Shown here: piece after piece, positions 2,979 to 53,373 of the stretch | Position numbering within the stretch: position 1 is the first letter of the stretch | How the letters are laid out: every line of letters starts with the position of its first letter | Assembly (NCBI GenBank): GCA_015484555.1 | Contig: WFMZ01000030.1 | Location: forward strand, 18,547 to 82,546 | Reading direction: 5' to 3' | Source of the DNA: Hydrogenovibrio sp. | Lineage (GTDB): Bacteria > Pseudomonadota > Gammaproteobacteria > Thiomicrospirales > Thiomicrospiraceae | Length of the DNA stretch: 64,000 bases | Notes under the pieces: generated by a model | The model's database searches: none | The model's input: the letters and a program-made list of their open reading frames with translations, nothing else | Told to the model about the DNA's origin: nothing | Program-made: the position numbers and the translations under genes

Positions 2979-3006
2979 TCAAACCTAAAAATCGCCAGGG
3001 GTGGGT
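2979..3006 (+). repeat. Dispersed repeat copy
   Basis: aaacctaaaaatcgccaggggtgggta in the divergent mog/HD-GYP intergenic region. Confidence 0.92.
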
Positions 3007-3077
3007 ATAAGATTTGACTCAATGTTTTCTGAACGCTAAAGTACACTATTCCTCTAAATAGATTAACAAGGTTAAAT

Positions 3078-4325
3078 ATGCCTAACATTCATCAAAATAT
3101 AGAGCAGAAACTACTAAAAATAGTATTATTTGCCACTCTTCTGATTTCACTTATTACAGGAACAGCTATTTTCTTTTATGAGCGGGAAGCATTAGAAGAC
3201 AAAGCCATTCAAATTACAGATACCTTGATTCATAAAACCTTTGAAAATGGTCATGTACAAGGGTTAATTCAGAATAAACAACAACTGAAAGCATTTTTAA
3301 ATAAAACGGTAAAAGGTCAATTTAAGTATATAGAAATTTATGATAAAAAAGGGCGAAGTCTTGCCGAGTCCATTAGCACAGATGACTCTGTTCCGACTAT
3401 CCTTCAAAACTATCAAGAAGATAAAAACAATCATGATATAAATCGGGCTACTCGCTACCGGACTTACTATATTGGCGATGATATGTATGTTCAAATTTTC
3501 GTCAATATATCATACGGTCATGCAGAAGTTATTTATGAGATTCCAGAATATATTTACCAGCTAATGCAACAGAGTATTATGCACTCTATTATTATTGCTA
3601 TTCTAGCGGTTCTCTTTACGGCCATGATTCTTTACCCTTTGGTCAAGCAGCTTGTAAACAGCATTCAACAAAATGAACAAGAAATTTTACAATCTAACGT
3701 GGACATGCTGTCCTTAATTGGAGCCGCCATTGCCAAAAGAGATTCTGATACAGACGAACATAACTTCAGAGTAACCCTCTATGCCTTAAAATTAGCGGAA
3801 GCACTTAAACTGCCCAAAACAGATTGCCAAGAACTTATCAAAGGAGCTTTTGTACATGACATCGGCAAAATAGCCATTCCTGATGCCATTTTATTGAAGC
3901 CTGGTAAACTCGATGAAGCTGAATTTGAAATAATGAAAAGCCATGTTTCGGAAGGGGCTGACATTGTACGAGAGGTTAAGTGGTTAGAAAGTGCACAAAA
4001 TGTAGTGCACTACCACCATGAAAAATATGATGGCACAGGCTACCTAACAGGGTTAAAGGGAGAGGAAATCCCTCTATCAGCTAGGATTTTTACCATTGTA
4101 GATGTTTTTGATGCATTAAACTCCAACCGCCCATACAAAAAAGCATTTACACTGGAAGAAACTATTCATATTTTAGAGGAAGGAATCGGCTCGCACTTTG
4201 ATCCTAAGCTGATTCAGATTTTCTTGCCTATGACGCCTGATTTGTTAACTCGCTATGGCTCTATTGAACGTCCAGCCCTACGCTTAGAGCTCATAAAAGA
4301 AGTTCAACACTACTTTAAAGCTTAG
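3078..4325 (+). CDS. HD-GYP domain protein with N-terminal membrane sensor region (putative c-di-GMP phosphodiesterase)
   Basis: HDIGKIAIPDAILLKPGKLDEAEFEIMKSH and HHEKYDGTGYLTGLKGEEIPLSARI motifs; two TM segments. Confidence 0.9.
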   Translation: MPNIHQNIEQKLLKIVLFATLLISLITGTAIFFYEREALEDKAIQITDTLIHKTFENGHVQGLIQNKQQLKAFLNKTVKGQFKYIEIYDKKGRSLAESISTDDSVPTILQNYQEDKNNHDINRATRYRTYYIGDDMYVQIFVNISYGHAEVIYEIPEYIYQLMQQSIMHSIIIAILAVLFTAMILYPLVKQLVNSIQQNEQEILQSNVDMLSLIGAAIAKRDSDTDEHNFRVTLYALKLAEALKLPKTDCQELIKGAFVHDIGKIAIPDAILLKPGKLDEAEFEIMKSHVSEGADIVREVKWLESAQNVVHYHHEKYDGTGYLTGLKGEEIPLSARIFTIVDVFDALNSNRPYKKAFTLEETIHILEEGIGSHFDPKLIQIFLPMTPDLLTRYGSIERPALRLELIKEVQHYFKA

Positions 4326-4460
4326 TTAACTTTAAACACTCATACTAAAGCCATTAGCATTTACTTATACCCTTGATAAAATTAATGCTAAACGCCTGGC
4401 ATTATTTAATGGATAATGTGCGCATTAATAAAAAGTTCATTTGTAGAACAGGGTGATGAC

Positions 4461-5651
4461 ATGTATTTTTTCCATAGAGCTTTCCGTCCATTTTTCTTAG
4501 GGGCCACCCTATTATCAGTTATTTTGATGTTTGTTTGGTGGATAAGCTTTAATACCATGATGATGCCTGGCAGCCCTGTTTTGTTTAAGTTTTCAGGTGT
4601 TTCACCTGTTAATTGGCATGCTCATGAAATGATATTTGGCTATGCACTAGCTACCGTCTCAGGATTTTTACTCACCGCCGTTTTAAACTGGACGCATCAA
4701 AATACCGCTTCAGGCAAGCCATTAGCTTTAGTTTTTATTTTATGGCTAGCCGCTCGCATAGGCTTTATTGTTGATCTACCTTTAGAGTGGGTTGCTATAC
4801 TAGATTTGGGCTTTACCTTGGGCTTATTTTTACTTTTTTTTATACCTATTTATATTGCTAAGGAATGGAAGCAACTAGGCTTAGCCTCTAAATTCTTACT
4901 ACTGGTTATCACTAACACCTTGTTTTATGCGAATAGTTTAGACTTACTACCTGCTAGCTGGGGCGATATTGGCAAGCAAACCTTAATTGCCAGCTTATTC
5001 TTAGTGCTGGCCATTAACATCACCATGTTAAGGAGACTTACGCCATTCTTTACCGAAAAAGCTTTAGGCCTGCCCGCCTTTAAAGCTAGCAAGCTATTAG
5101 ATGGCTTATCTTTATTTGGTTTTTTCTTTTTACTCGTTGCCATTGTATTTTTGCCTAACAGCTTACCCGTCGCCATTTTGGCATTTTCGCTTGGGCTAGT
5201 GCATGTTATTCGCTTAAAAAGCTGGTATCACGCTAAAATTTGGTCGGTTATTTTACTGTGGCCATTGCATGTTTCCTATGCCTTCTTCGCTCTCGGCATG
5301 TTTTTATACGGCTTTGTTAATTTACACTGGTTAGATGAAAGCATTGCGTTACACAGCTTAGCGGCCGGAGGGGTTGGCTTATTGTGCTCTTCCATCTTGG
5401 CTCGTATTTCTTTAGGGCACTCTAATCGTAACGTCTTCAATCCACCTAAAGGAGTGGTTTTGGTGTTTATTTTGCTCACTATCACCGCCCTTATTCGAAT
5501 CATTATGCCCGTCATTTCACCCGAGCACTATACACTTTGGATCAACCTAAGTCAGGGAGGGTGGTTAATCAGCTTTACCTTACTCAGCATCCTGTATTTT
5601 AAGATACTGGCTTGGCCGCCTGAGCCTAAACATAATGGTAACTTCTTTTAG
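4461..5651 (+). CDS. nnrS: NnrS family membrane protein
   Basis: MYFFHRAFRPFFLGATLLSV and NWHAHEMIFGYALATVSGFLLTAVLNWT, typical NnrS N-terminus; multi-TM. Confidence 0.9.
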   Translation: MYFFHRAFRPFFLGATLLSVILMFVWWISFNTMMMPGSPVLFKFSGVSPVNWHAHEMIFGYALATVSGFLLTAVLNWTHQNTASGKPLALVFILWLAARIGFIVDLPLEWVAILDLGFTLGLFLLFFIPIYIAKEWKQLGLASKFLLLVITNTLFYANSLDLLPASWGDIGKQTLIASLFLVLAINITMLRRLTPFFTEKALGLPAFKASKLLDGLSLFGFFFLLVAIVFLPNSLPVAILAFSLGLVHVIRLKSWYHAKIWSVILLWPLHVSYAFFALGMFLYGFVNLHWLDESIALHSLAAGGVGLLCSSILARISLGHSNRNVFNPPKGVVLVFILLTITALIRIIMPVISPEHYTLWINLSQGGWLISFTLLSILYFKILAWPPEPKHNGNFF

Positions 5652-5713
5652 TTTAGGCTTGCCCTTGAAGAAATAAAATTTGCCCTCATATAGCTCTTTC
5701 AAAATAATAAAAA

Positions 5714-8422
5714 ATGAGCACTATGAGCGACCAAAACACACAACTTGACCCTGAAGATATTGAGCTAATTGAAGTTAAAGAAACACAACCTTCAACTGAC
5801 TCGCCTAAAGAAGATCAAGTTGACTCACTGGAAATATTAGAAACCCTAAATACTGAAACCACAACGCCTACTGAAGCGGATGCTATTTCCCAAGCAAATG
5901 CAGAGGATAGTGGCCCGCTAGACAATACGTTTGATGGAGGTCCTATTGAAATTATTGTCGATGGCGAATTGACTATTGATAAAGAAGCGCTGGCGGCTAA
6001 AATTGAACAAAGTATTGGCGACTTAATTAAAGTTAAAAAAACCAACCCTACCCAACTCTTCTTACTACCTGTGAAAGATCGCCCTTTCTTCCCTGGCCAA
6101 ACCTTACCTGTGATGCTCAATAAAGAAATGTGGGAAAAAACCATTCGCAAGGCCATAGACACTAAACAAAAGTTTATTGGTATTATTTTTGTCAATACCG
6201 AGGATCACCATTTAGCCACTACCGATGACTTTGCTAAAACAGGAACACTGGTTCGTATCCATGATCCAAAATTCAAAGAAGACCACATTCAAATCATTGC
6301 AGAAGGGATTGCACGCTTCCAAATTAGCGACTGGATTTCAGATGAAGAACCTTATCAAGCCAAAGTAACCTACCCTAAAAATATTGAAACGGGTTCGGAA
6401 ACAGAAAATAAAGCTTATGCCTTGGCGATTATGAATGCCTTTAAAGAGCTATTGCCTTTAAACCCGCTTTACAGCGAAGAGCTAAAGTTTTTCTTAAACC
6501 GTTACAGCGCAACCGATGCGGAGCACCTGGCTGATTTTGCTGCCAGCTTAACCACCGCTGACAACCATAAGTTACAAGATGTTTTAGATACGTTAAACCT
6601 AATTGAACGTTTGGAAAAAGTGCAAAAACTCTTCCAAGAAGAACTAGAAGTCACCAAAATTCAATTCAATATTCGTGAACGTGTCGACATTAAAATAAGT
6701 GATCAGCAACATGAATACTTTTTGCGCCAACAGTTGAAAGAAATTCAAAAAGAATTAGGCATCACAAAGGATGACCGAACCGCTGATGCAGATAAATTTC
6801 AAGAACGTTTACAGAAACTAACCCTTAGCGATGAAGCACAAAAGAAAGCCGATGAAGAGCTCGATAAAATTTCAGTGCTTGACCCACAATCGCCAGAATA
6901 TGGTGTGGCTAGAAACTGGCTAGACTGGTTAAGCCAATTACCTTGGCAACAGTTTTCAAAAGATAAGCTCAACCTAAAACGTGCTAAAAAAATACTAGAC
7001 AAAGGCCATGATGGGCTAGACGACGTAAAAAATCGTATTTTAGAATTCTTAGCCGTCGGTGCTTTAAAAGGTGAAATTTCAGGGTCTATTATTTGCCTAG
7101 TGGGACCACCAGGGGTGGGTAAAACTTCTATCGGTAAATCTATTGCCGACACCATGGGGCGTAAGTTTTACCGTTTTTCAGTAGGTGGCATGCGAGATGA
7201 AGCCGAAATTAAAGGGCACAGACGCACCTATATTGGCGCCATGCCAGGTAAATTCATTCAAGCATTGAAGGGCTGTCAAACGGCCAACCCCGTTATTATG
7301 CTAGATGAAATTGATAAAATTGGCTCTTCTTACCAAGGAGACCCTGCATCAGCCTTGCTTGAAGTGCTGGACCCTGAACAAAATAATGAGTTCATAGACC
7401 ATTACATGGACGTTGGCTTTGACCTTTCTAAAGTGGTTTTTATTTGTACGGCGAATACCTTAGATAGTATTCCTGCACCTTTATTAGACAGGATGGAAGT
7501 CATTCGTTTGTCGGGTTACATTACGGAAGAAAAGGTGCAAATTGCCAAGCATCACTTACTGCCAAACTTATTAGATGATGTGGGGCTGACCAAGCAACAA
7601 ATTAAATTTACACCCGCAACCATCAAGCACTTAATTGACGGCTATGCTCGTGAAGCGGGTGTGCGTAATTTAAAGAAACAGCTGGCTAAGATCATTCGTA
7701 AATTAGCCGTTAAATTTGTGACCAAAAATTTAAAAGAAAAAACGGTTCATGTTAATGACTTAGAAAATTTATTAGGGCAACCACGCTTTACCCCTGAAAA
7801 AACCAACCAACAGCTAGGCACCGTTACCGGCTTAGCTTGGACATCAATGGGAGGCGCAACCCTGACCATTGAAGCCAGCAGAGTACATACGCATAGCCGT
7901 GGTTTAAAGCTTTCAGGGCAACTGGGCGATGTCATGCAAGAGTCTGCCGGCATTGCCTACAGTTTTCTTACCGCCAACCTAAGCAAGTATAAAGCGGACC
8001 CAAACTTTTTCGATAAGGCATTCGTTCACCTACACGTACCTGATGGCGCTACACCAAAAGATGGCCCTAGTGCAGGTGTCACCCTTGCTACCGCCCTACT
8101 ATCTTTGGCTAGAGGAGAAGCTATTAAGCAACCCCTTGCCATGACGGGAGAGCTTAGCTTAACTGGCCAAGTTTTACCTGTTGGCGGTATTCGTGAGAAG
8201 GTCATTGCGGCTAAACGTATTGGTATTAAAATGTTGATTATTCCAGAAGAAAATAAGAAAGATTTTGATGAATTACCTGACTATCTAAAAGAAGGCATGA
8301 ACATGCACTTTGCTAAACATTTTGATGATGTGGCCAGGTTAACCTTTAATGTGCGGAGCCAATCGCCTGCTCTAAAATTAGCGCAAGACTTACAAAAGCA
8401 GGAAAAAGAGAGCAAGTCTTAA
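5714..8422 (+). CDS. lon: ATP-dependent protease Lon (La) with long acidic N-terminal extension
   Basis: Walker A GPPGVGKTSIGKSIA, DEIDKIG, protease motif PKDGPSAGVTLATALLSL. Confidence 0.97.
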   Translation: MSTMSDQNTQLDPEDIELIEVKETQPSTDSPKEDQVDSLEILETLNTETTTPTEADAISQANAEDSGPLDNTFDGGPIEIIVDGELTIDKEALAAKIEQSIGDLIKVKKTNPTQLFLLPVKDRPFFPGQTLPVMLNKEMWEKTIRKAIDTKQKFIGIIFVNTEDHHLATTDDFAKTGTLVRIHDPKFKEDHIQIIAEGIARFQISDWISDEEPYQAKVTYPKNIETGSETENKAYALAIMNAFKELLPLNPLYSEELKFFLNRYSATDAEHLADFAASLTTADNHKLQDVLDTLNLIERLEKVQKLFQEELEVTKIQFNIRERVDIKISDQQHEYFLRQQLKEIQKELGITKDDRTADADKFQERLQKLTLSDEAQKKADEELDKISVLDPQSPEYGVARNWLDWLSQLPWQQFSKDKLNLKRAKKILDKGHDGLDDVKNRILEFLAVGALKGEISGSIICLVGPPGVGKTSIGKSIADTMGRKFYRFSVGGMRDEAEIKGHRRTYIGAMPGKFIQALKGCQTANPVIMLDEIDKIGSSYQGDPASALLEVLDPEQNNEFIDHYMDVGFDLSKVVFICTANTLDSIPAPLLDRMEVIRLSGYITEEKVQIAKHHLLPNLLDDVGLTKQQIKFTPATIKHLIDGYAREAGVRNLKKQLAKIIRKLAVKFVTKNLKEKTVHVNDLENLLGQPRFTPEKTNQQLGTVTGLAWTSMGGATLTIEASRVHTHSRGLKLSGQLGDVMQESAGIAYSFLTANLSKYKADPNFFDKAFVHLHVPDGATPKDGPSAGVTLATALLSLARGEAIKQPLAMTGELSLTGQVLPVGGIREKVIAAKRIGIKMLIIPEENKKDFDELPDYLKEGMNMHFAKHFDDVARLTFNVRSQSPALKLAQDLQKQEKESKS

Positions 8423-8592
8423 CTGGCACTCCTTTTTTCATCAACTTTCATTAAGTACAATTACGTCAGAAAATCTTTGTAGTTGCTTTATATCAATCAA
8501 AGCACTGAATTTTAGGCTTATCAGTTGGATAGACAGGCTAAATCCCTTAGAATAGCGACATTATTTTTCATGCTCGAAGAGACTCAAAAAGA

Positions 8593-9390
8593 ATGACTTT
8601 GTTTAAATACCCCGAAGACAAAATTCCCGTGCTCATTATCTTAGCTTTCAGTGCTTTAGATTTCACTCTGTATTTTTTAACCGATAATGCCTGGTTACTA
8701 GCTGGCTACTGGCTATTAATGATAATTCCTAAAGGCGTTATTTCTGCATGGAACCACCACCACCAACATTGCCATGTATTTAAGCAAAAGCCATTAAATA
8801 GAATTTTAGAATTTTTCTACGCATTGCATACGGGTGTGACCACCAATTTATGGGTACTACACCATAATTTAGGCCACCACCGACACTTTTTAGATCAAGC
8901 GAAAGATGAAAGCCGATGGAAACGTAAGTCTGGCAAAAAAATGGGACGTTTAGAATATACTTTAAGCGTCACGCTGACAGCTTACTATCGTGGCTTTATA
9001 GTCGGCAATCAGTTTCCAAAACTACAAAAAGAATTTGTGGTGTATAGTTTAATTACCCTAGGGATTTTAATTGCTTTAACGATCTACAACCCAGTAGGCG
9101 CTTTATTTTTATTTATACTACCAATGATAATGAGCCTACTATTTACCTCTTCAGCAACCTATAACCACCATGTGGGTTTAGATACACAAGACCAGTTTGC
9201 AGGGTCATACAATGTCACAGCTACTTGGTACAACCTATTAACGGGTAACCTGGGTTACCATACTGCACATCACTTCAAACAAGGCGTGCATTGGGCAAAG
9301 TTACCCGAGTTACATGCAAAAATTGCCGATAAAATTCCAGAACATTGTTACACCAATTCGAAGTTTGATGTGCTTTCTAATAAGCTATAA
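8593..9390 (+). CDS. Fatty acid desaturase family membrane protein
   Basis: His boxes HHHQHCH, HHNLGHHRHF, HTAHHF and TM segments. Confidence 0.85.
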   Translation: MTLFKYPEDKIPVLIILAFSALDFTLYFLTDNAWLLAGYWLLMIIPKGVISAWNHHHQHCHVFKQKPLNRILEFFYALHTGVTTNLWVLHHNLGHHRHFLDQAKDESRWKRKSGKKMGRLEYTLSVTLTAYYRGFIVGNQFPKLQKEFVVYSLITLGILIALTIYNPVGALFLFILPMIMSLLFTSSATYNHHVGLDTQDQFAGSYNVTATWYNLLTGNLGYHTAHHFKQGVHWAKLPELHAKIADKIPEHCYTNSKFDVLSNKL

Positions 9391-9439
9391 AGTTATTATA
9401 AGGTGAAACTGCTATGCTTTAGCTTCACACTAGTTCTCC

Positions 9440-9464
9440 AAACCCTAAAACCGCCAGGGGTGGT
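9440..9464 (+). repeat. Dispersed repeat copy
   Basis: aaaccctaaaaccgccaggggtggt between convergent desaturase and oleate hydratase genes. Confidence 0.92.
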
Positions 9465-9469
9465 TCTCT

Positions 9470-11059
9470 CTACCGACCAATTGCCTTCAAAGCACCTAGT
9501 AAATATTTAGGGTTATGAGCGGAGTCATACATGGGCTGTACTTCTTTGTCCGACTCAAACAAGCCATAAACAGCCATCTGTGCTGTTCTTACCGAGTATT
9601 CTACGGTAAAAACACAATCTTTAGGCGCTTCAGCAAACTGCCCCAAAAATGCAAAGTTTGTCGACCCTTTTGGTAGAACATCTGGTCTATCGCCTAAAGT
9701 TCTGGGCATAAATAAACTATCTACAAATGGCATGGCAACCGGAATACAGTTAATCTTACCGGCTTTCGTAATCGGTTCCATAAGGTCTTGAATTTTTAAA
9801 TGGTAATATAGCTCTTCAAGCATTTCAGCACCTGTACACTCTGCCATCGTCTTATCGACATAATTTCCTTTTCTATCTGGGTACAACCCATAACCCCAGA
9901 AAATTTTGATATCTTTAGGTTGGTTTGGAAAATGGGGCTGTCGAGCAATGACGATAGACATCAACCAATTAGAATCGGTCATTGTGACCAAACCGCCCGT
10001 ACCATCAACGTTTCCTGAAAAGTTTTCCATATAATCATGAAAGGTAGAATCATGAAGCGTTGCGGTAAAGGAATACCACTTTTGCAAATCAATATTGTCA
10101 CAAAATGGGCTAGGGTTACCAAAAGCTTTATCTTTCTTAGCCAGTTTTTTCCACAGTTTCCAAGAGCCTGACTCGGTAATACCTTTTAGTTTAGCAGGCG
10201 TATTCCAATTACCGTTATCGGTACTATCAGTAATAGAGCCATTGGTTATAAAGACATAGCCATGTTCACCCAATATAATTTCTTCACCATTTTTTAGGTG
10301 TAGCACCGAAGCCTGCTTTTGATCTGCCGACAGGTTAAAGTCAATATCAATGACCTCTTTACCCATTTCAAACTGAACACCACGTTTTTCTAGGTAGGCT
10401 TTAATAGGTAAAACAACCGAATCATATTGGTTATATTTAGTTCGCATCACGCCCCCTAAACGATAAAGGCCATCGACTAGGTGAATGAAACGTTTCATAT
10501 AGCGACGCATTTCTGCCAAGCTGCTCCACTTTTGAAAAGCAAACATAGAGGTCCAAATATACCAAAAGTTGGTTTCAAAGAAGTCATGGTCAAACCAGTC
10601 TTCAATACGTTTGTTTCCTAAAGATTTCTCTGAAACAAACGTTAACTTTAAAAAGTCAGTTTGTTGCTTTAAAGATAAGCCATAGCTTGAAACATCTAGT
10701 TTTTTTCCGTCTTTTAACAGCCTAGCTTGTCCATTGGAGACAAACCGTTCATTAAATTCGAATGATTCATCTCTAACCGAAATGGCTTCATCTTCTAAAG
10801 AAGGAATATAAGACAGCAAATCCCAATAACATTCGTAGTGCATTTCATGCATTCTGCCACCACGCACCACATAGCCTTGCTCTTTGGTGCCTGCGCCATC
10901 TGTAGCACCGCCAGGGATACTATCTTTTTCTAAAATGTGAATGTTTTTGCCAGGGATGCCCGCATCTTTTTCCAAGTACACAGCACTGGCTAGGCCTGCA
11001 ATACCACTGCCTATAATGTAAATATGAGTTTCTTGTAAGTGTTTAGATTGAGAAGTCAT
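9470..11059 (-). CDS. ohyA: Oleate hydratase (MCRA family, FAD-dependent)
   Basis: GSGIAGLASAVYL dinucleotide fold; EKDSIPGGATDGAG and RGGRMHEMHYECYWDLL are characteristic of the family. Confidence 0.87.
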   Translation of the reverse strand: MTSQSKHLQETHIYIIGSGIAGLASAVYLEKDAGIPGKNIHILEKDSIPGGATDGAGTKEQGYVVRGGRMHEMHYECYWDLLSYIPSLEDEAISVRDESFEFNERFVSNGQARLLKDGKKLDVSSYGLSLKQQTDFLKLTFVSEKSLGNKRIEDWFDHDFFETNFWYIWTSMFAFQKWSSLAEMRRYMKRFIHLVDGLYRLGGVMRTKYNQYDSVVLPIKAYLEKRGVQFEMGKEVIDIDFNLSADQKQASVLHLKNGEEIILGEHGYVFITNGSITDSTDNGNWNTPAKLKGITESGSWKLWKKLAKKDKAFGNPSPFCDNIDLQKWYSFTATLHDSTFHDYMENFSGNVDGTGGLVTMTDSNWLMSIVIARQPHFPNQPKDIKIFWGYGLYPDRKGNYVDKTMAECTGAEMLEELYYHLKIQDLMEPITKAGKINCIPVAMPFVDSLFMPRTLGDRPDVLPKGSTNFAFLGQFAEAPKDCVFTVEYSVRTAQMAVYGLFESDKEVQPMYDSAHNPKYLLGALKAIGR

Positions 11060-11158
11060 CGGGTGTTTCCTTTATTATCTATGGTCTATTCATAACCGTT
11101 TATATATTTACTATACTGAATTTTGTAATAAAGTTCCTGTCTTTAACTTTAACCAGAT

Positions 11159-11178
11159 ACCACCCCTGGCTTTATGCC
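11159..11178 (-). repeat. Dispersed repeat copy, degenerate
   Basis: accacccctggctttatgcc; only the GCCAGGGGTGGT part is conserved. Confidence 0.65.
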
Positions 11179-11244
11179 CTTTAGGGTAGATTTTTGGCTT
11201 TCGCACAGCTTAAGCTATCACAGCCAGCAGATAATCTAACGCTT

Positions 11245-17635: not shown

Positions 17636-17976
17636 TATGGGTTCTGCGCTCAACTCCTTCATGCACTCAAGATCATTTGGGTATTGAACTTATACAAATA
17701 GCAAGGACAACAGGGAAGCTCATCATTGATAAAAACTTTATGGTGGCCGTTGTGAACAGGGAATGTTAATTTAAGCGGTGAAACATTAAATAATGCGAGA
17801 ACATGAGGTTTCGCTAGGGCTAATGCCAGATGTATAAACCCAAATTCTGGGCCAACAACAAAATTAGCTTTATCCATAATGGCCGCTGTTTGAGTTACTT
17901 GGTGAGTTTGTACCAAAACATCACTGAGTCCGGTTTCATTTGATTCATTTGATTCATTTGATTCATTTGATTCATT
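17636..17976 (-). pseudogene. Degraded glycosyltransferase family 9 (heptosyltransferase-like) C-terminal remnant, truncated and frameshifted
   Basis: VVGPEFGFIHLALALAKPHVLALFNVSPLKLTFPV...CPCYLY parallels the intact paralogue at 20767..21846; after YLYKF the homology continues in another frame (YPNDLECMKELSAE vs CPYDLRCMKELGAD). Confidence 0.8.
17937..17976. repeat. 9-bp tandem repeat (TTTGATTCA)x4 plus partial unit
   Basis: Read directly: tttcatttgattcatttgattcatttgattcatttgattcatttta. Confidence 0.9.
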
Positions 17977-17999
17977 TTAAAAACCTTAACAAGGTCATT

Positions 18000-21846: not shown

Positions 21847-22969
21847 TATTTACCCTCTTCACAACCACTTCATTAAACTCATTCACCACATTGATATTCA
21901 TTCCCTCAATCATCGTAATAAATTGACACTGATAGGAATCCTGCTTAGATAAAACTGCGAATAATGAGAGATCTGGGCGCAACCATTTGCAAGTTAACAA
22001 GGCCGTACAAACATCCCCTACGACAGCACATTGTTCATCTAATAATGGCAATATAAACTCAGATGCTAATGCCGAGGTAACAACCTTAAAAGCGCCTGCG
22101 TCACAAAGCAAAAAAGGGTCATACTCTTGAACAATAGGGTGATACTTTACCGCTACATTGATGCCGCTTTCAGCTTGAATTCGAATAAATTCTGTTACTT
22201 TCGCTTGGTACCCGGTCATTTTTTCGACATCATGTGGGTGTGCGATAAAAATAAGCAATTCAATATCCTGATACCCTTCCGTATCCTCTCCACACTCGTC
22301 TAGCAGCGCACTACTCAAGGCTAATATACGGCTGTCTGTAAACATCTGCAAAGGTAACTGACAAACAGCTTTTCCTGTCACAATTTCTTTTAAAGCCTGT
22401 TCAGGTTGAAATAAATAAAGCTGCTTTATTTTAGAACTACCGCCCACAAAATAGGGCTCTTCCCACCAGAATCCATAAGATATTTTCTTTAAAAAACTAT
22501 TCAGTTTATCTTTATACCAAACCGACTCTCTACCTTGATAACTATATAAACCATCATCTAAATAACCCCCAACCACGTTAGGAGCACAAGATTTAAGAAT
22601 ATTTAATATATATTGAAATTCAACTCGACGATCACTACCGGTTAGGACATAATTTGGACTAAAGCTTTGTAATAATTGTTTAATTTTAAAAAAATTTTGC
22701 TTACGTTCTGCGAGTTTTTTTATCCCCTTTACGGAACCTGCAAAAATTTGTACTGAAGAAAATGGGGAGCCGATCCAGCGTTGTAAGACCTGATAATAGA
22801 AATTATTCTCTGTTATCTTTTGATCAACCAACCAAAGTTGTTTTTCACCTGCCTCACTCGCCATTAAAGCGTGAGTACAAGCCACTAATATATTCAAAGG
22901 CGTTGAAACAACATACAAAATAGTCTTTTCTTTAAACTCTTTACCCGAACAGGCTTGGAAATTATTCAT
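21833..22969 (-). CDS. Putative LPS glycosyltransferase (sialyl-/polysialyltransferase-like fold)
   Basis: LYVVSTPLNILVACTHAL N-terminus, GGYLDDGLYSYQGR and VKYHP motifs; overlaps GT9 genes. Confidence 0.45.
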   Translation of the reverse strand: MNNFQACSGKEFKEKTILYVVSTPLNILVACTHALMASEAGEKQLWLVDQKITENNFYYQVLQRWIGSPFSSVQIFAGSVKGIKKLAERKQNFFKIKQLLQSFSPNYVLTGSDRRVEFQYILNILKSCAPNVVGGYLDDGLYSYQGRESVWYKDKLNSFLKKISYGFWWEEPYFVGGSSKIKQLYLFQPEQALKEIVTGKAVCQLPLQMFTDSRILALSSALLDECGEDTEGYQDIELLIFIAHPHDVEKMTGYQAKVTEFIRIQAESGINVAVKYHPIVQEYDPFLLCDAGAFKVVTSALASEFILPLLDEQCAVVGDVCTALLTCKWLRPDLSLFAVLSKQDSYQCQFITMIEGMNINVVNEFNEVVVKRVNNETN

Positions 22970-23985
22970 TTACATAACAACCTATAAACAGCCGCCACGC
23001 TTAAACATTGCAAAGACTGCTTTTTTTGCTCTTTACTGGTAAATTCTTTAATATAATCTTGTGCCAAAGGAGACGCCAGTTGAGTTACCTTGTTTCCTTT
23101 TGCCCCTACTTTTTTAGGATCTGTGACCCGATAGAGTACAACCATCGGCACATCAAGTGCGGCTGCGACGTGAGATAAACCCGTATCAACCGACACCACA
23201 AAACTAGCATACTTTAAACAAATAGCCACTTCATTTAAACTCATTTTGTTTTCAGGTACCCACCCCTGGCGATTTTTGCCTTTCAAACGTTCTGAACGTG
23301 CCTTTTCTTCCGCATTTCCCCAAGGGTACACAATGGTTAACCTACCTTCATATTGTTGTTGAAGTTGCTCTGCCAGCAAAACCCAATGTTCTTCTGGCCA
23401 ATATTTGGTTGGCCAGGTTGTGCCGTGTAAAAATACGGCATAAGGCTGTTGGATATTAGCTAACGGTTGCCAGCTATCCGTTGCTAAACCATATTGAATA
23501 TGTTCTTCTTCCTGTGCTTTATTAAGCGGATAACCAAGCACTTTTGCAAACAATTCTCTTAAGCGCCAAATAGCGTGTTGCTGCTTATCTACTTTTATTT
23601 TTCGAGTATAAAATAAAGACGCTAAGGGTTCGCGTGCGCTACTCCAATCTAGTCCGGCTTTAACATTGGCATTTATTTTTCGCACCACCCAGGCACTTTT
23701 TAGTAAGCCTTGTGCATCAATCACTAAATCGTACTGTTGCTCATTAATAGCTTGAAAAAAAGTTCGAATGGCTTTTCGAGAACGAAAAGGATGTTTACGC
23801 CATGCTCTTAACTCAATTGGCCAAACAGTCTTAACGGCTGGATGCCAAGTGGGAATTTCTGCGAAGTCTTTTTCTACTACCCAGTCCACTTGCAAATTAG
23901 GGATGCGTTGCATAGCATCACTCAACGCTGGAAAGGTATGAAACACATCTCCCATTGAGGACATTTTGATCAGCAAAACTTTCAT
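22966..23985 (-). CDS. waaC: Lipopolysaccharide heptosyltransferase I
   Basis: MKVLLIKMSSMGDVFHTFPALSDA, LHGTTWPTKYWPEEHW, VSVDTGLSHVAAALDVP; contains one copy of the dispersed repeat. Confidence 0.9.
   Translation of the reverse strand: MKVLLIKMSSMGDVFHTFPALSDAMQRIPNLQVDWVVEKDFAEIPTWHPAVKTVWPIELRAWRKHPFRSRKAIRTFFQAINEQQYDLVIDAQGLLKSAWVVRKINANVKAGLDWSSAREPLASLFYTRKIKVDKQQHAIWRLRELFAKVLGYPLNKAQEEEHIQYGLATDSWQPLANIQQPYAVFLHGTTWPTKYWPEEHWVLLAEQLQQQYEGRLTIVYPWGNAEEKARSERLKGKNRQGWVPENKMSLNEVAICLKYASFVVSVDTGLSHVAAALDVPMVVLYRVTDPKKVGAKGNKVTQLASPLAQDYIKEFTSKEQKKQSLQCLSVAAVYRLLCK
23258..23279 (-). repeat. Dispersed repeat copy inside the waaC coding sequence
   Basis: tacccacccctggcgatttttgc; coding strand GCAAAAATCGCCAGGGGTGGGTA = KNRQGWV. 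Confidence 0.93.
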
Positions 23986-31302: not shown

Positions 31303-31323
31303 ACCCACCCCTGGTGATTTTTA
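31303..31323 (-). repeat. Dispersed repeat copy
   Basis: acccacccctggtgatttttaa between ppc and panD (one mismatch in the core). Confidence 0.85.
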
Positions 31324-34748: not shown

Positions 34749-34773
34749 AAACCCAAAAATCGCCAGGGGTGGT
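34749..34773 (+). repeat. Dispersed repeat copy
   Basis: aaacccaaaaatcgccaggggtggt between phoU and pstB. Confidence 0.92.
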
Positions 34774-42466: not shown

Positions 42467-42527
42467 AACCCCAAAAATCGCCAGGGGTGGTGTCTTAGCC
42501 AGACCACCCCTGGCGATTTTTGGGGTT
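42467..42527. repeat. Dispersed repeat, inverted pair: perfect 25-bp inverted repeat with 11-nt spacer
   Basis: AACCCCAAAAATCGCCAGGGGTGGT-gtcttagccag-ACCACCCCTGGCGATTTTTGGGGTT. Confidence 0.97.
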
Positions 42528-42570: not shown

Positions 42571-42598
42571 TATTATCTTGCCGTACAAACGCTAGTAA

Positions 42599-42790: not shown

Positions 42791-42801
42791 ATCTAAATTC
42801 C

Positions 42802-43728: not shown

Positions 43729-43924
43729 GAACAGTCCTTCATTTAGTTTCATTTATAATGGATGGAATTATAGCTGAAACCAACCCTGAACAACACTAAA
43801 AACGCCTCCAACTTAACTTTTAATTTCAGTTAACGCTTATAAATCAATCTACTTATTTAAAACCAATCAAATGAAAATGCTTGTGTTTTGTCATAAGATG
43901 ACTAAAATAATTCTTTTGAAAGGC

Positions 43925-44003
43925 AAGTATAAATAGACAGTTTTTATACTTCATAAATATTCAAAAAAGCAATCCAAAGCCTTGCGCTTTCGATTGCTTT
44001 TTT
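43925..44003 (+). promoter_or_regulatory. argD leader with 9-bp inverted repeat (43925..43951) then terminator-like hairpin (43963..44003)
   Basis: AAGTATAAA...TTTATACTT; AAAAAAGCAATCCAAAGccttgcGCTTTCGATTGCTTTTTT ending about 20 nt before the ATG. Confidence 0.65.
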
Positions 44004-44022
44004 AGTTTTAGCGAGACAGAGA

Positions 44023-45198: not shown

Positions 45199-45206
45199 GA
45201 CAGATT

Positions 45207-46103
45207 ATGAGACATTTTTTAACCCTAAAAGACTTAACGCCAGCAGAATGTCAGCAGTTAATGACCCGTGCCACTGAATTAAAAGAAATTCAAAAGTCGG
45301 GTGAAATTTTCGAGCCTTTAAAAAATAAAACACTGGCAATGATTTTTGAAAAAGCCTCTACCCGCACACGTGTATCCTTCGAAATCGGCATGACTCAATT
45401 AGGTGGCCACGCACTATTTTTATCGCCACGTGATACCCAACTGGGTCGTGGCGAACCTATTGAAGACAGTGCCCGTGTTATTTCTAGCATGGCCGATGGC
45501 ATTATGATTCGTACCTTCGGGCATGATATTGTCAAAACCTTCGCGGCCAACTCAAGCGTGCCAGTTATCAATGCCTTAACCGATGATTTCCACCCTTGCC
45601 AGTTACTAGCAGACATGCAAACTTATCAAGAAAACCGTGGTTCTATTCAGGGTAAAACCGTAGTGTGGGTAGGCGATGGCAACAACATGTGCCATTCCTA
45701 CATCAATGCAGCAGCACAATATGGCTTTAACTTAAGAATTGCCGCGCCAGAAGGCTATGATCCTAATATGGATTTACTCAATGCCAATAAGCATTGTGCT
45801 GAAATTATTCGCGACCCAATGGAAGCTTCAACCGGTGCCGACTTAATTGTGACTGATGTTTGGGCGAGTATGGGACAAGAAGATGAGCAAAAGAAACGCG
45901 AAGTGGCTTTCAAAGACTATCAAGTTACTCAAAAAATGATGGCACAAGCAAACAAAGAAGCCGCCTTCCTACACTGCCTACCCGCACACAGAGGTGAAGA
46001 AGTGGCAGCAGATGTAATTGATGCCAAAGACTCCCTTGTCTGGCAGGGCGCTGAAAATAGACTACATGCCCAAAAAGCATTGCTTGAATTTTTAATGGCG
46101 TAA
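45207..46103 (+). CDS. argF: Ornithine carbamoyltransferase
   Basis: [41 protein letters not shown]. Confidence 0.96.
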
Positions 46104-46136
46104 GCCATTTAAGACTTTGACTGACATACCCCAAAC

Positions 46137-46163
46137 AAAAAAAGTGCCATAGGCGCTTTTTTT
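46137..46163 (+). terminator. Rho-independent terminator of argD-argF
   Basis: AAAAAAAGTGCCataGGCGCTTTTTTT. Confidence 0.8.
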
Positions 46164-46198
46164 GTAGCTAAACAATCTACCGTTACCAGATTTTAAAG

Positions 46199-46789
46199 TT
46201 ATTTTCGACCCGCAAAAGCCTGCCCGAGTGTCCCGCTATCAATATATTCTAACTCACCGCCCATCGGAATACCTTGTGCTAGGCGCGTCACTTTAATATC
46301 TAACTTTATTGCCATATTCTGTAAATAATAGGCGGTTGCTTCACCTTCAACCGTTGGGTTAGTCGCTAAAATAAGCTCACTGAAACTTTCATTTACCAAT
46401 CTAGTTTGCAGCTTTTCTAGCCCCAATTCTTCTGGGCCAATGCCATCAATCGGTGATAGATGGCCTTTTAGTACAAAATAACGGCCTTTAAAAATACCTG
46501 ACTGTTCGATAGCTAACACATCCGATGGCGATTCCACCACACACAGCTCATCATTATTACGACGTTCTGAGGTACAAAGATGACAAACTTCATATTCTGT
46601 TAAGTCTTGGCATTTTTGACAGCTGTTAATTTTCTCTAACGATTCTGTCAGCTTATTGGCCAGCATATGCCCACCTTTTTTATTTTTTTCTAATAAAAAA
46701 TAAGCCATACGTTGTGCAGACTTTTGCCCCACACCAGGCAAGACTTTAAAGCTTTGAATGAGTTCTTGAATTAAAACACTTTGATTCAC
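46199..46789 (-). CDS. recR: Recombination protein RecR
   Basis: LPGVGQKSAQRMAYFLL; CQKCQDLTEYEVCHLC zinc finger; Toprim VVESPSDVLAIEQSG. Confidence 0.96.
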   Translation of the reverse strand: MNQSVLIQELIQSFKVLPGVGQKSAQRMAYFLLEKNKKGGHMLANKLTESLEKINSCQKCQDLTEYEVCHLCTSERRNNDELCVVESPSDVLAIEQSGIFKGRYFVLKGHLSPIDGIGPEELGLEKLQTRLVNESFSELILATNPTVEGEATAYYLQNMAIKLDIKVTRLAQGIPMGGELEYIDSGTLGQAFAGRK

Positions 46790-46794
46790 GTTTC

Positions 46795-46819
46795 AAGCCC
46801 TAAAATCGCCAGGGGTGGT
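46795..46819 (+). repeat. Dispersed repeat copy
   Basis: aagccctaaaatcgccaggggtggt between recR and ybaB. Confidence 0.92.
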
Positions 46820-46835
46820 CTCGTTAAAAATACCA

Positions 46836-47165
46836 TTAAAATGGCATCTTTATGCCGTCGGGTAAATTCATCCCTGCGGTTAAACCGCCCATTCTTTCTT
46901 GTGATGTTTCTGCTACTTTACGTGCAGCACTATTAACCGCGGCAGCAAACAAATCTTCTAACATTTCTTTGTCATCCATTAAGCTATCATCAATACTCAC
47001 ATTAATCAGTTCATGACGCCCACTCATTTGAACCTTAACCATGCCACCGCCGGCTTCGCCTTCTACGGTCATATTGGCAAGCTCTTCTTGCGCTGCTTGC
47101 ATATTTTTTTGCATTTCTTGAGCTTGCTTCATCATGTTGCCCAAACCACCTTTTCCACCGAACAT
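46836..47165 (-). CDS. ybaB: YbaB/EbfC family nucleoid-associated protein
   Basis: [29 protein letters not shown]. Confidence 0.95.
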
Positions 47166-47199
47166 AAGCTTTCCTTCTTTTGATTTATAGTTAATAGTT

Positions 47200-49301
47200 T
47201 TACGTTATTGATAGCGATTTAATCGAACGCTCAATGACCCGCATATTTAATATTTGCATAAAATCTTGTACTTGCTGATCATTATAAATACTTTGGTAAG
47301 CGGTATTATTTTGCTGATCTAACCTTTGCTTACTTAAAAAGGCAGGCGTACTGTAATCAAACTGCCCTTTTACAAATCTTAAAGAACAACCCAGCGCTTG
47401 TTGTAACGACGCGGCTAATTTCTCGACTGACCGATCTGTTTTGGCCATCGCTTGCATAGGATCGACACTTAACACACACTCTTGCTCATTTAGTTCAATC
47501 AGAATAGCTTGATTGGCTAGCTCAGCTTCCATGCCCTTCAATTTCAATTGTACAATAATCTGCTGCCAAGGCAGAGCCGATAAGTCTCTCGCACTCAGTT
47601 TTACTTCCTGACAAACAAATGCTTCTTCAGGTAAATCAGGCTCAAGCCCTTCAACGATTGGAACTTCTTGAATCGTTGAAATAATGTCTAGAGATTGTAC
47701 CTGCTCGTCTATTTCCCAAGGCGGACTGCTATCCAAATCAGGCGAATGTTCCATCTCTGATGTAGCTGTGTTTCCTACCGGTTCAGGTGATAAAGGCATT
47801 GCCTCTACGTTAGAGTTAGCAGGTAAAAGTTGTTCCGCCTGTTTTCCTAACTCAACTAATTTTTCAGTTGCTGAAAGTGCTTGGCTATCATTTTGAACAA
47901 TAACCGGTTCTGTAACAAGGCCCTTTTCAGGGCTTAGGGCTTTCCCAGAGTATTTTCATTTAACCCTCCCATCATCGCTTTCACGGTGTCTAAATAAACT
48001 GCTTCCGACTCTGACACGATAGGTTGATTATTCGTAGGCGCAACGGACTGTTCAGTATTTAGGAGCACCTTCTGTTGCGGTATCGCTTCAACCTGTACGG
48101 CTTCTGCAGAAGATTGTATCGACGCAGCGATACTGGCAAAACTCACCGCTTCGCCCGTATTTTCAGCGACTAAGTTTGTTTGTGTTCCTGACTCAGAGCC
48201 TGTAAAAGCAACGCTGCTGGTCGCATCAAAAGCTAACATACGTAGCAAAGCCATTTCAAAGCCAATTTTAATATCAGGAGCGAAGCGCATATCTTGCTTT
48301 GCCAATAATGCAATTTGGTAGAGTGCTTGAATCTTATTCGCATCAATATGTTGTGCTGTTTGGGCAAGCACCTGCTCATCGACCACGGCAGCTTCGGTTA
48401 AGCTGCCCAGTATTTGTAACATTTGAACCTGGTGAAAAATTTCACTTAACTGGTCGACTAAGGCTTCATAGTTAACCCCAATAGACGACAGGTTAATCAT
48501 GACCTGCTTAATACCCTCTGCCGACTGGTTTATCAAGGCTTCTAATATATGCACAGCATGTTGCTGATCAACCAAACCTAACATAGTTTGTACTGGCGTA
48601 AATTGTACTTCTCCACCGCCATAGGCAATGGCTTGGTCTAAAATACTTAAGGCGTCACGAGCAGAGCCATCGGCACTTTTGGCGATTAATGCCAAGGCCG
48701 TTTCATCAAATGGAATTTTCTCTTGGTCTAGAATAAAGCTTAAGTGATCTTTAATTTGCAACTGCGTTAAACGCATTAAATTAAACTGTAAGCAACGAGA
48801 TAAGACGGTAATAGGTAGTTTGTGAGGATCGGTAGTGGCCAGCAAAAACTTAACGTGCTCTGGTGGTTCTTCTAGCGTCTTAAGTAGTGCATTGAAACTA
48901 CTTTTCGACAGCATGTGCACTTCATCAATTAGGTAGACTTTAAAACGACCTTGTACTGGCGCATACTGTACATTTTCTAACAACTCACGCGTATCTTCTA
49001 CTTTGGTTTTAGAGGCCGCATCAACTTCTATTAGGTCAATAAAGCGCCCTTCATCAATACTTTTACAAATCGAACACACGCCACAAGGGGTTGAGCTAAT
49101 ACCCTCTTCGCAGTTTAAAGCTTTTGAAAAAATACGGGCAATGGTGGTTTTACCCACACCCCGTGTGCCAGTAAACAAGTAGGCATGGTGTAAACGCTGT
49201 TGATCTAAAGCATTGGCCAATGCTTGCATGACATGCTGCTGACCAACCAATTCTGAAAACTTTTTAGGACGCCACTTTCGGGCTAAAACGACATAGCTCA
49301 C
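47200..49301 (-). CDS. dnaX: DNA polymerase III subunits tau/gamma: gamma = 47934..49301; tau (about 700 aa) by -1 frameshift into the 47200..47940 frame
   Basis: [37 protein letters not shown], zinc cysteines, [16 protein letters not shown]; second ORF opens in the -1 frame with no stop between slip site and 47200. Confidence 0.9.
47915..47947 (-). promoter_or_regulatory. dnaX programmed -1 frameshift signal
   Basis: Minus strand CTG GGA AAG CCC TAA GCCCT-GAAA-AGGGC: slippery G GGA AAG, 0-frame stop, 5-bp stem with GAAA tetraloop 6 nt downstream. Confidence 0.82.
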
Positions 49302-49372
49302 AACAGATTTCTACTTAAAATAATAATATTCTATTCTACCTTTTTCAAACACCATAAGAGGCGAAAAAAAGT

Positions 49373-49858
49373 TTATAGATGCTTTTTTTGAATATCCGCT
49401 AACAGACCTTCCGAGGCAGAGGTCACCAAATCAAACACATGATTAAAGCCCTCTGCGCCACCATAGTAAGGATCAGGTACTTCAGTTTCGCTAAAGCCGG
49501 TCGCGTAATCTAAAAATAATTGAATTTTAGAATTATATTCAGGCAATGATAGGTCTATTAAATCGGCATAGTTAGCATCATCCATTGCCAAGACATAATC
49601 AAATTCAATCATATCGCCCAAGTTAACTTGCCTAGCTCTTAAATCAAGCATATCAATCCCTCTATTTCGTGCGGTTTGAATAGAGCGAGTATCCGCAGGT
49701 TTGCCACTATGCCAAGCCGCCGTGCCAGCAGAATCAATCCTAATTTTATCAGCCAAGCCTGCATCTTGAACTAGCTGGCGAAAAACACCATGTGCAGTCG
49801 GTGAACGGCAAATATTGCCCAAACAAACAAAGAGAACAGATACTTTTTGGGTCATCAT
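49373..49858 (-). CDS. Low-molecular-weight protein tyrosine phosphatase
   Basis: VLFVCLGNICRSPTAHGVF; VPDPYYGG. Confidence 0.93.
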   Translation of the reverse strand: MMTQKVSVLFVCLGNICRSPTAHGVFRQLVQDAGLADKIRIDSAGTAAWHSGKPADTRSIQTARNRGIDMLDLRARQVNLGDMIEFDYVLAMDDANYADLIDLSLPEYNSKIQLFLDYATGFSETEVPDPYYGGAEGFNHVFDLVTSASEGLLADIQKKHL

Positions 49859-49955
49859 TTTTTCCTTTTAAAAGGCTTATATAGTAAAGCGCCTGCACAA
49901 AGCCGTCGCTTAGTCGTAAAATAACCTCTATTCTACGAAAAAATTAGAGTCTGCA

Positions 49956-50630
49956 ATGGCCATTTTAAGACCCAAACCGACAATTAAGCTGATTCCTTTT
50001 TCACCCAATTGGTTGCTTTATGAAGACGAGCAAGTCATTGTCGTGAATAAGCCCAGTGGATTATTATCTGTCCCTGGCAAAGATGCCAACCCGGCCGCCT
50101 CTTTAATAGGCCAGGTGCAAACCTATTGCCCTAGCGCTTTGATCGTTCACCGTTTAGACATGGATACATCTGGTATTATGCTGCTGGCAAAAAATGCTGA
50201 TGCACATCGTATGTTAAGCCGCCAGTTTCAAGACCGACAAACCCAAAAACAATACCAAGCAATTTGTGCCGGCAAACCCTCTCAGCTAAAAGGCGTTATT
50301 AACCAGCCTATGCGTTGTGACTGGGAAAGGCGCCCCTTGCAAATGATAGATTTTAAACAAGGCAAGTTTGCACAAACCTACTGGCAAGTTGAAGACCAAC
50401 AACCGAACCATTTTAAAGTTCTACTACGCCCTATTACCGGCCGTTCTCACCAGCTTCGCTTACACATGAAGCAACTGGGTCACCCCATATTAGGCGATAA
50501 TCTCTACGCAGATCCTATCAGTTTACAAGCCAAAAATCGATTAATGCTACACGCAGCACAACTCAGTTTTACCCTGCCCAGTAATGACGAACCAATGACT
50601 ATTCAACAAGATGCCGACTACTGGGCATAG
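49956..50630 (+). CDS. rluA: RluA family pseudouridine synthase
   Basis: VNKPSGLLSVPGK; IVHRLDMDTSGIMLLAKN; GRSHQLRLHM. Confidence 0.88.
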   Translation: MAILRPKPTIKLIPFSPNWLLYEDEQVIVVNKPSGLLSVPGKDANPAASLIGQVQTYCPSALIVHRLDMDTSGIMLLAKNADAHRMLSRQFQDRQTQKQYQAICAGKPSQLKGVINQPMRCDWERRPLQMIDFKQGKFAQTYWQVEDQQPNHFKVLLRPITGRSHQLRLHMKQLGHPILGDNLYADPISLQAKNRLMLHAAQLSFTLPSNDEPMTIQQDADYWA

Positions 50631-50714
50631 CAAATAAAATAAAGTTTAGCTGGCATAAATAGTGCTTTATAGCCAGTAGCTAAAATTAAATTCCGAGAGA
50701 ACAGAGGAAATATC

Positions 50715-51965
50715 ATGTCTGCAGAACTAGAAAAAGATGACCAAGCCACCCTTGAAATGTTAGAAATGATGGGAGAAACAATCGATGACGCCAGCACAGA
50801 CGAGCTGGGAACCGACGGTCTGCTAGATGCCCTTGAAGAATTGGATGACATGGAAAGTCATGATGATATTTTAGCCACGGTTGCAGACACAAGCGTACAG
50901 GGACAAGAGCTACAAGCTGCCCTAGCCGACACAAATGATGTTGGAATAGCAAACTTAGACATGACCGACTTACCAGAAGATATGGACTTAGGCGACATAG
51001 AAGGCTTAGGTGACCTTGATGGCTTAGGTGACCTTGATGGCTTAGAAGACCTAGATAATTTAGAAACCAAAATTGAAAATATTGAACCTGAACTATCTAC
51101 TGAAGCAGAAGAAATTGCCCTTGAACCCGCTGAAGAGCTTGCAGATGAAACCACTGCAGCAATGCCTGTCGAAGATTTTGAAGACGTTACTGCTGATTTA
51201 GAAACAGAGTTACCCGAAAGTAATGATGCCTTAGATTTAGACATGGCCAATTTAGAAATGGACTTGCCTGAAGAAGCCACTATTCCAGAAGTAGAAGCTG
51301 ATGATGACTTAGCCATGCCCGAAGAGGAGGCTGCTAACATGAACAACATTCTAGATGAAGTCGCTGACCTTTCTGAAATACCAGAGGAAGTGGCAGATGA
51401 AACAATTGAAGACTTGGCTGATTTGGATATAGGGTCAAATATGGACGACTTAGACTTACCAGAAATTGAAAACGTTTCCCTAGCCGAAGACCCTTTAACT
51501 GAAGACCTAAGTGCCGAACTAGGTGAAATGGAAGTAGAAGCAGCTGAAATAGATGCACCTTTAGATAAAAATATCCCTGATAACGATGATCTTGATTTAA
51601 GCAATGCTGAAAATTCAGTAGATGCAATGGAAACCGCTGTTGAAATAGACTGTGAAATTAAAGATATGGCACTTAAAGCCTCTCAAACAGCAAAAGAAGC
51701 AACGGCTTTAGCACTTGAGGTAAGTGCACAAGCCCAGGCTTCGGCAGCCAAAATGCAAGCAGCCATTGTTGCCACCTTCAATGCAACAGAACGCGCATTT
51801 GAAGCGGCTAAAAAAGCAGACTATGCTATTAATATCTCGGCTTTAAGCACACAGGAAAGTGCTGAACACCTCCAAAGTAAAATTGAAGAAATCAAACAAC
51901 AAAATGAAAGCCTGAAATCTGTAAATCAAGAACTGTCTAGCAAGATACAACAATTAACCAAATAA
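50715..51965 (+). CDS. Uncharacterised highly acidic protein with Ala-rich C-terminal coiled coil
   Basis: Asp/Glu/Leu-rich with GLGDLDGLGDLDGLEDLD repeat; KASQTAKEATALALEVSAQAQASAAKMQAA coiled coil. Confidence 0.8.
   Translation: MSAELEKDDQATLEMLEMMGETIDDASTDELGTDGLLDALEELDDMESHDDILATVADTSVQGQELQAALADTNDVGIANLDMTDLPEDMDLGDIEGLGDLDGLGDLDGLEDLDNLETKIENIEPELSTEAEEIALEPAEELADETTAAMPVEDFEDVTADLETELPESNDALDLDMANLEMDLPEEATIPEVEADDDLAMPEEEAANMNNILDEVADLSEIPEEVADETIEDLADLDIGSNMDDLDLPEIENVSLAEDPLTEDLSAELGEMEVEAAEIDAPLDKNIPDNDDLDLSNAENSVDAMETAVEIDCEIKDMALKASQTAKEATALALEVSAQAQASAAKMQAAIVATFNATERAFEAAKKADYAINISALSTQESAEHLQSKIEEIKQQNESLKSVNQELSSKIQQLTK
51003..51056. repeat. 18-bp tandem repeat (ggcttaggtgaccttgat, 2 exact plus 1 degenerate copy)
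   Basis: ggcttaggtgaccttgat ggcttaggtgaccttgat ggcttagaagacctagat, coding GLGDLD. Confidence 0.9.
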
Positions 51966-51970
51966 AGGCA

Positions 51971-53290
51971 ATGGCCATGAGCGAAGCAAACCAAAATCAA
52001 GACCATGATTATCGTGATGACTTGCTAGATGAACTAGAATTTCTAGACACTTCAACCGACAACCTAGCCGCCGATGTAACCTCGACTGAGGCACTAAAAG
52101 CTACTTATGAAAAACAGGATTCTGCTCAAACCATTGATGCGGCGACACTTGCGTTACAAACGGCACAAATTGTTCAAGAGTCAGCTAAGGACATTCAAAA
52201 GGCAACCCAAACAACCCTGAAGCTAGCTTATGACCATCAGCAACAAACTACAGCGTTAAGTGATGCTAATTTTTCATGGCGACATAGCGTTAATACAGCC
52301 ATAAAAGGCATTGATTCAGCTAAAACATCTATCTTAACCATGATGATTGTCAGCATTGTTTTCAGCAGTTTATCTATTGCTGCAATGGGATATTTATACT
52401 ATTCTATTAACCATAAAATTGAGATGGCAAAAGGAGATGTTCTAGATATTGTCACCACTGAAAACTTGCTAGCCAATAAAAAGTATCAGTTAAAACTAGA
52501 CCAACTATATTCTCTTATCGAGTCCATGTCTGCAAAAGGTGAAGGGTTTTCACAAGCTATTCCAGCCAAAGTCTCTCAAGCAATCGTGGCTGAAAAGCAC
52601 TCTGTTGCTAACCATACAAATGAAGCCACTAAATCAGGAAAATATAGTCAACATGATGCTCATGATATGCATATCAACCATCTAGAACATGAGATACAAG
52701 AAGCACCACACGCTGTAAAATCGGTGGTTAAGAAAATTTATAAGCAAGAGACTAAAGCGGTTAAGCCACCTAAACAGGCCATGGTTCAAGAAAAAATTCA
52801 AGTCGTGCCTTTGAAAACAACCATTATTATTGATGATTCAAAAATTCAAAACCAAATTAAGGCCTTTGCCAAGATTCAAAAGAAGCAAGTGCATAAAATT
52901 TCTCAGCTAATGAAAAAGCTAGAAAAGCAACTGGCACATAAAGATCATACTGCCACTAACAAGCACTCAAGCGTACCTACAGGCTTAACCGTTGAACAAT
53001 TGAAGAAGTTAAATGGTATTTCTTGGGCAGTACACCAACAAGGTAAACAGCTAAAGAGCATTCAAAAGCAATTGGCAATGCCTTTGCCTAAACAAGCTAT
53101 TGTGCAGAAAGAGTCCGCAACCGCGACTGAGTTGAAAGGTATTTCGCAGTCACTCAGAACCTTAAAACAAAAAATGATAGCCTTGCAAAATCAACAAGCA
53201 CAAATGCAAAAAGAAGTGCAATCTTTAAGTAATGTAACCGAAGGTTTAACAAAAAAACCCAGACCTTACCGTTATGAATCAAAGAACTAA
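51971..53290 (+). CDS. Uncharacterised coiled-coil protein with one central TM helix
   Basis: TM SILTMMIVSIVFSSLSIAAMGYLYY; flanking Ala/Gln and Lys/Gln-rich heptads; 5 bp after the preceding gene. Confidence 0.8.
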   Translation: MAMSEANQNQDHDYRDDLLDELEFLDTSTDNLAADVTSTEALKATYEKQDSAQTIDAATLALQTAQIVQESAKDIQKATQTTLKLAYDHQQQTTALSDANFSWRHSVNTAIKGIDSAKTSILTMMIVSIVFSSLSIAAMGYLYYSINHKIEMAKGDVLDIVTTENLLANKKYQLKLDQLYSLIESMSAKGEGFSQAIPAKVSQAIVAEKHSVANHTNEATKSGKYSQHDAHDMHINHLEHEIQEAPHAVKSVVKKIYKQETKAVKPPKQAMVQEKIQVVPLKTTIIIDDSKIQNQIKAFAKIQKKQVHKISQLMKKLEKQLAHKDHTATNKHSSVPTGLTVEQLKKLNGISWAVHQQGKQLKSIQKQLAMPLPKQAIVQKESATATELKGISQSLRTLKQKMIALQNQQAQMQKEVQSLSNVTEGLTKKPRPYRYESKN

Positions 53291-53317
53291 CTTTATTTAA
53301 GCAAAGCACAAAGCAAC

Positions 53318-53373
53318 CTTAAAAATCGCCAGGGGTGGGTATATTCAAGACCACCACCCCTGGCGATTTTAAG
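53318..53373. repeat. Dispersed repeat, inverted pair (near-perfect, one-A indel)
   Basis: CTTAAAAATCGCCAGGGGTGGgtatattcaagacc(a)CCACCCCTGGCGATTTTAAG. Confidence 0.95.

Follow-up and report, generated by a model that had tools for sequence, protein, structure and literature searches.

The window, by which we mean the whole 64,000-nucleotide stretch of DNA analysed, carries a short dispersed repeat. At up to two mismatches its core ATCGCCAGGGGTGG was found 12 times, compared with a mean of 0.14 and a maximum of 1 in 100 dinucleotide shuffles. The initial annotation of this DNA had described a dispersed repeat well above chance, which these counts bear out, and every copy that it listed was recovered by the same search. 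The copies were said to lie almost always between genes; among those listed, the one at 23260 alone is within a gene. The features of the window are the following.

2987..3004, + strand: uptake-like word AAAAATCGCCAGGGGTGG, intergenic, between divergent genes
9447..9463, + strand: one-mismatch copy AAAACCGCCAGGGGTGG, intergenic, with convergent gene ends on either side
11160..11202, - strand: degenerate composite copy, the GCCAGGGGTGG core split from AAAGCCAAAAATC by a stretch containing CCCTAAAGGG
23260..23277, - strand: copy in the LPS heptosyltransferase I gene (22966-23985, - strand), translated as KNRQGW
31305..31322, - strand: one-mismatch copy AAAAATCACCAGGGGTGG, intergenic
34755..34772, + strand: word copy, intergenic
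42473..42490, + strand: first arm of an inverted pair, at convergent gene ends
42504..42521, - strand: second arm, partner of 42473..42490
46802..46818, + strand: word copy, intergenic, adjoining recR
53321..53338, + strand: first arm of an inverted pair, at convergent gene ends
53354..53370, - strand: second arm, partner of 53321..53338

An additional match at 7105-7118 encodes a portion of the Lon protease motif GPPGVGKT, is devoid of the A-tract and was counted as chance. No Rfam match was obtained at the repeat. The copy placed at 11159 by the initial annotation is degenerate, as stated there. In its composite form, a CCCTAAAGGG hairpin (TACCCTAAAGGGCATAAAC) stands between AAAGCCAAAAATC and GCCAGGGGTGG, and about seven such cases were seen in 464 kb (window 11160-11202 (-), L045:3718, L052:18783, L054:5054, L054:15260, L056:1613 and L049:16981). 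The window also contains, at 17935-17979, about five intergenic tandem copies of a 9-bp repeat, TTCATTTGA.

The initial annotation had proposed counting the word across the genome and in relatives, measuring its intergenic enrichment and the spacing of its inverted pairs, and looking for RAYT transposases and competence genes. The assembly scanned (1.92 Mb, 73 contigs, 94% complete) contains 282 copies at one mismatch or fewer, against none for the reversed word used as a control, and the repeat is not confined to the window. Its presence on both strands, already reported, proved near-equal, with 139 forward and 143 reverse copies. Consensus and context statistics were derived from a 464-kb sample made of the window and twenty 20-kb stretches. 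The extended consensus of 70 copies reads TTSAAAgSYaAAAATCGCCAGGGGTGG, then TCT or GTA; its near-invariant core of about 11 bp (CGCCAGGGGTGG) has an A-tract directly on the 5′ side, a further AAA about 9 bp upstream, and TCT/GTA after it. Cores lie between genes in 46 of 64 cases (72%) and within genes in 18, though coding sequence makes up 90% of the sampled DNA, an intergenic enrichment of about 7-fold. Since greedy ORF calling overextends some starts, a few of the in-gene copies close to gene starts may be intergenic. The 100 exact copies listed include 11 close pairs, each of them inverted, with a spacing of 27-49 bp. Folded as RNA, the window pair 42473..42490/42504..42521 reaches -50.2 kcal/mol (z = -11 versus shuffles) and the pair 53321..53338/53354..53370 reaches -34.1 kcal/mol (z = -7.1). 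Two single intergenic copies folded no better than shuffles. The RNA structure first suggested as a function thus holds for the inverted pairs, as terminator-like hairpins, and not for these single copies.

The exact word of the studied genome is at chance level (0-2 copies) in each of eleven congeners. However, in k-mer analysis of a 95-100 kb sample per relative, most of them proved to possess a dispersed word of another sequence. The dialects found in these samples are CCAGGCTGGG in G004, CCAGGTTGGG in G001 and G011, CCAGGCCTGG in G005, G009, G014 and G016, a relaxed form, CAGGCCTG, in G022, and ACCGGCCGGT in G032; no word was detected in those of G008, G017 and G019. Whole-genome counts of CCAGGCCTGG are 367-677 in seven congeners, 346 in G014, 263-815 in all nine g6 species and up to 856 in g3, compared with 0-8 in many other genomes, the studied one among them. 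Those of AATCTRCCAGGYTGGG are 284 in G004, 283 in G011 and 337 in G001, and at most 1 elsewhere. Since CCAGGCCTGG occurs in g1, g3, g4 and g6, it may be the ancestral word. The dialects have a common inner part, CCAGG followed by GGTGG, CTGGG, TTGGG or CCTGG, with ACCGGCCGGT of G032 as the outlier, and the commonest, CCAGGCCTGG and ACCGGCCGGT, are palindromes. In a three-protein tree with a weakly supported backbone (54-63%), G001, G011 and G004 group together and the studied genome stands with G008 on another branch. The G016 genome, a single contig of 1,932,455 bp with 47% G+C, matches Thioalkalimicrobium (Thiomicrospira) cyclica ALM1, of the Piscirickettsiaceae (PMC4891895). The word of this strain is CCAGGCCTGG. 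G032 (L200-L204) is a family member without CCAGG words, in which the palindrome ACCGGCCGGT(A) is dispersed, with 31 copies in a 100-kb sample, possibly as an unrelated dialect. About 96 tandem copies of a repeat that includes AAGGCAGCTAAGAAA, probably a coding repeat, are found in a single stretch of G019 (L174-L178).

The words located within genes were compared with the orthologous genes of relatives, which had been fetched by similarity to the studied genome's own sites, so that the test is conditioned on its words; the null was drawn from the same alignments. At the codons aligned to these words, the relatives carry their own word in 22 of 49 comparisons, for 0.5 expected (random positions; maximum 5 in 10,000). 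When each site was counted once, 7 of 11 were shared, versus 0.34 under the null (maximum 3 in 5,000). The offset between aligned words is 0-1 nt in nearly all matches. The seven shared sites are in fliO, an aminotransferase, an ABC-type solute-binding protein, a DnaJ-domain-like protein, prmC, hemD and the window heptosyltransferase, the names of those outside the window being read from the sequences. At the heptosyltransferase site (23260..23277), CCAGGCCTGG occupies the aligned codons in six relatives. In hemD, the words of G001, G011 and G004 are in the opposite orientation. G008, which has no word, gave 0 of 6 at aligned sites. The peptides encoded by the word (NRQGW, NHQGW, KSPGV and others) align with native residues of the congener orthologues, in variable stretches of the proteins, and no consistent change of length was observed. 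An empty site in relatives, as left by a MITE, was not seen at the coding sites tested; the word there replaces other sequence in register. The inverted pair of prmC had at first the appearance of an insertion, which was rejected: its word is in register with those of G002 and G007, and therefore the extra sequence consists only of the second arm and the linker. These in-register words at orthologous codons are our strongest result and strongly support the uptake-like function that was among the options of the initial annotation, as do the dialects themselves.

The repeat is thus likely to be the DNA uptake sequence of this species, a 'self' word comparable to DUS and USS, and one dialect of a family-wide system, since known uptake sequences share the replacement of dialects in place, the strand balance, the intergenic enrichment and the inverted pairs with a terminator-like fold, and an intact ComEC is in keeping with them. 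ComEC/Rec2 of the studied genome (878 aa) scores 344 bits for a cut-off of 190, and ComEC is above the cut-off in each word-bearing genome of the family that was searched. In genus g2, ComEC matches are below the cut-off only, and the three words counted genome-wide are not above chance. Against the uptake reading, ComEC is also above the cut-off in G008, G017 and G019, in whose samples no word was detected. The PilQ model found a single secretin in the studied genome, MshL (above its own cut-off), within an MSHA-type operon. Matches of the canonical PilQ type (E ~1e-55 class) are absent from the studied genome, G001, G004, G011 and G005, which weighs against the uptake reading and leaves the usual T4aP route putative at most; one may therefore speculate that an MSHA-type pilus serves for uptake. 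Contig C27 carries several prepilin-like genes. Dedicated receptors are ComP in Neisseriaceae and, as proposed, ComN/PpdA in Pasteurellaceae. GspH/FimT (PF12019) was considered as a candidate receptor and rejected, as it is absent throughout the genus.

From these patterns we infer a receptor-based preference in uptake and a resulting drive. During natural transformation, a receptor borne by the pilus would bind the word on free double-stranded DNA, and word-bearing DNA would be preferentially imported, with ComEC as the inner-membrane channel, and then recombined. Word-bearing alleles would be recovered more often, so that words would accumulate, by point mutation or recombination, at places where they are tolerated, such as gene ends and variable protein loops. 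A shift in receptor specificity would lead to conversion of the words in place to a new dialect. The inverted pairs at gene ends are predicted from their fold to double as bidirectional terminators.

In Pasteurellaceae USS, AT-rich tracts stand at a fixed distance from the core. The word resembles USS in its core of about 9-11 bp with such tracts, its occurrence on both strands and its in-gene copies; however, its A-tracts are on the 5′ side, and the USS core (AAGTGCGGT/ACAAGCGGT) has no sequence relation to CCAGG-NNNGG. Cyanobacterial HIP1 (GCGATCGC) is likewise a very abundant dispersed palindrome but a different word, and it is not known to have species dialects at the same codons. The likeness to Neisseriaceae DUS lies in a hyperabundant word of about 10-12 bp, a mostly intergenic location, terminator-like inverted pairs and species dialects built on a common inner core. 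The sequence is different, the host is gammaproteobacterial and the major dialect is palindromic. A point against the uptake reading is that the numbers reached in this family (about 260-860) are several-fold below the 943-5918 copies reported for Neisseriaceae, where dialects act as barriers (Frye et al. 2013, PMC3630211). Inverted DUS pairs also act as terminators in Neisseria, and the origin of DUS by recombination or by point mutation is debated (PMC2397512). Membership in either sequence family was rejected, as the consensus has neither the inner core CTG of DUS nor the GCGG of the USS cores AAGTGCGGT/ACAAGCGGT, both as quoted in PMC12616744. Neisseriaceae and Pasteurellaceae are the two families with uptake words that this 2025 paper names, and we found no report of such words for Piscirickettsiaceae in the open-access literature. 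It is conceivable, though we put it forward tentatively, that a third system of self-DNA recognition evolved independently in the sulfur-oxidising Piscirickettsiaceae. Such a system would comprise at least five dialects, its main word would be a palindrome without a reading orientation, and the DNA would be captured by a pilus of the MSHA type instead of the PilQ type. If true, a third family would join the two with uptake words, and self-DNA labelling would have evolved repeatedly, also beyond animal-associated bacteria. Closely related species use different dialects and yet keep their words at the same codons, which would make this family a ready test system for shifts in uptake specificity. 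It would also be suited to testing whether words spread by drive or by selection, and to finding receptors by co-variation of pilins and dialects.

The alternative that fares best, though we consider it unlikely, is that the word is bound across the genome by a chromosomal protein involved in nucleoid organisation, segregation or repair, whose specificity has drifted between species. A co-evolving DNA-binding protein could also yield dialects, and the palindromic form of CCAGGCCTGG and ACCGGCCGGT is that expected for dimeric proteins. However, selection would have to act on each of hundreds of sites, many of them in codons, to convert them in place; uptake-linked recombination supplies a drive that a plain binding site does not, and the near balance of strands also speaks against it. 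That the word is a family of intrinsic terminators and nothing else is very improbable: at convergent ends, the inverted pairs with their A/T tracts give strong folds, and many G009 copies form perfect terminator-like hairpins, but the majority of copies are single, the two single ones folded are no better than shuffles, and 18 of 64 cores lie within genes. Termination as the sole function is contradicted by the single and in-gene copies, and a secondary role of the pairs is retained. We give equally little credence to a by-product of restriction-modification or of mismatch-repair bias at Dcm-type CCAGG/CCTGG sites. CCAGG is present in every dialect of the CCAGG type, but the conserved unit of 11-18 bp with A-tracts extends far beyond a 5-bp site, ACCGGCCGGT of G032 has no CCAGG, and restriction selects against sites. 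Methylation could still be part of word recognition.

Least credible is a mobile repeat, either a MITE or a REP/BIME moved by a RAYT, which would explain short, dispersed, mostly intergenic repeats with inverted pairs in a genome encoding two Y1 transposases (RAYTs, L061 and L062), but the word does not flank these genes, and at the coding sites tested its copies were substituted in place, with different words at the same codons in relatives. The REP/MITE option of the initial annotation is contradicted on both counts; of the genes it had suggested looking for, both RAYTs and ComEC are present. A palindrome of its own, GGGACGCTACCC, bounds the first RAYT, and the closest word copy to the second is about 1.3 kb away. 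The GGGACGCTACCC-bounded element (L061 1140-1970, G000:C27) adjoins the prepilin-like gene cluster, and it appears to have landed within a word copy. A viral origin was rejected, the two matches to viral contigs both being isolated within unrelated DNA. Finally, a contig of an 'Alteromonadaceae' MAG (L093, WGGB01000097.1) shares 6.8 kb at 96% identity with contig C11 of the studied genome, word copy included, and is probably a misbinned contig from a close relative or the product of a recent transfer.
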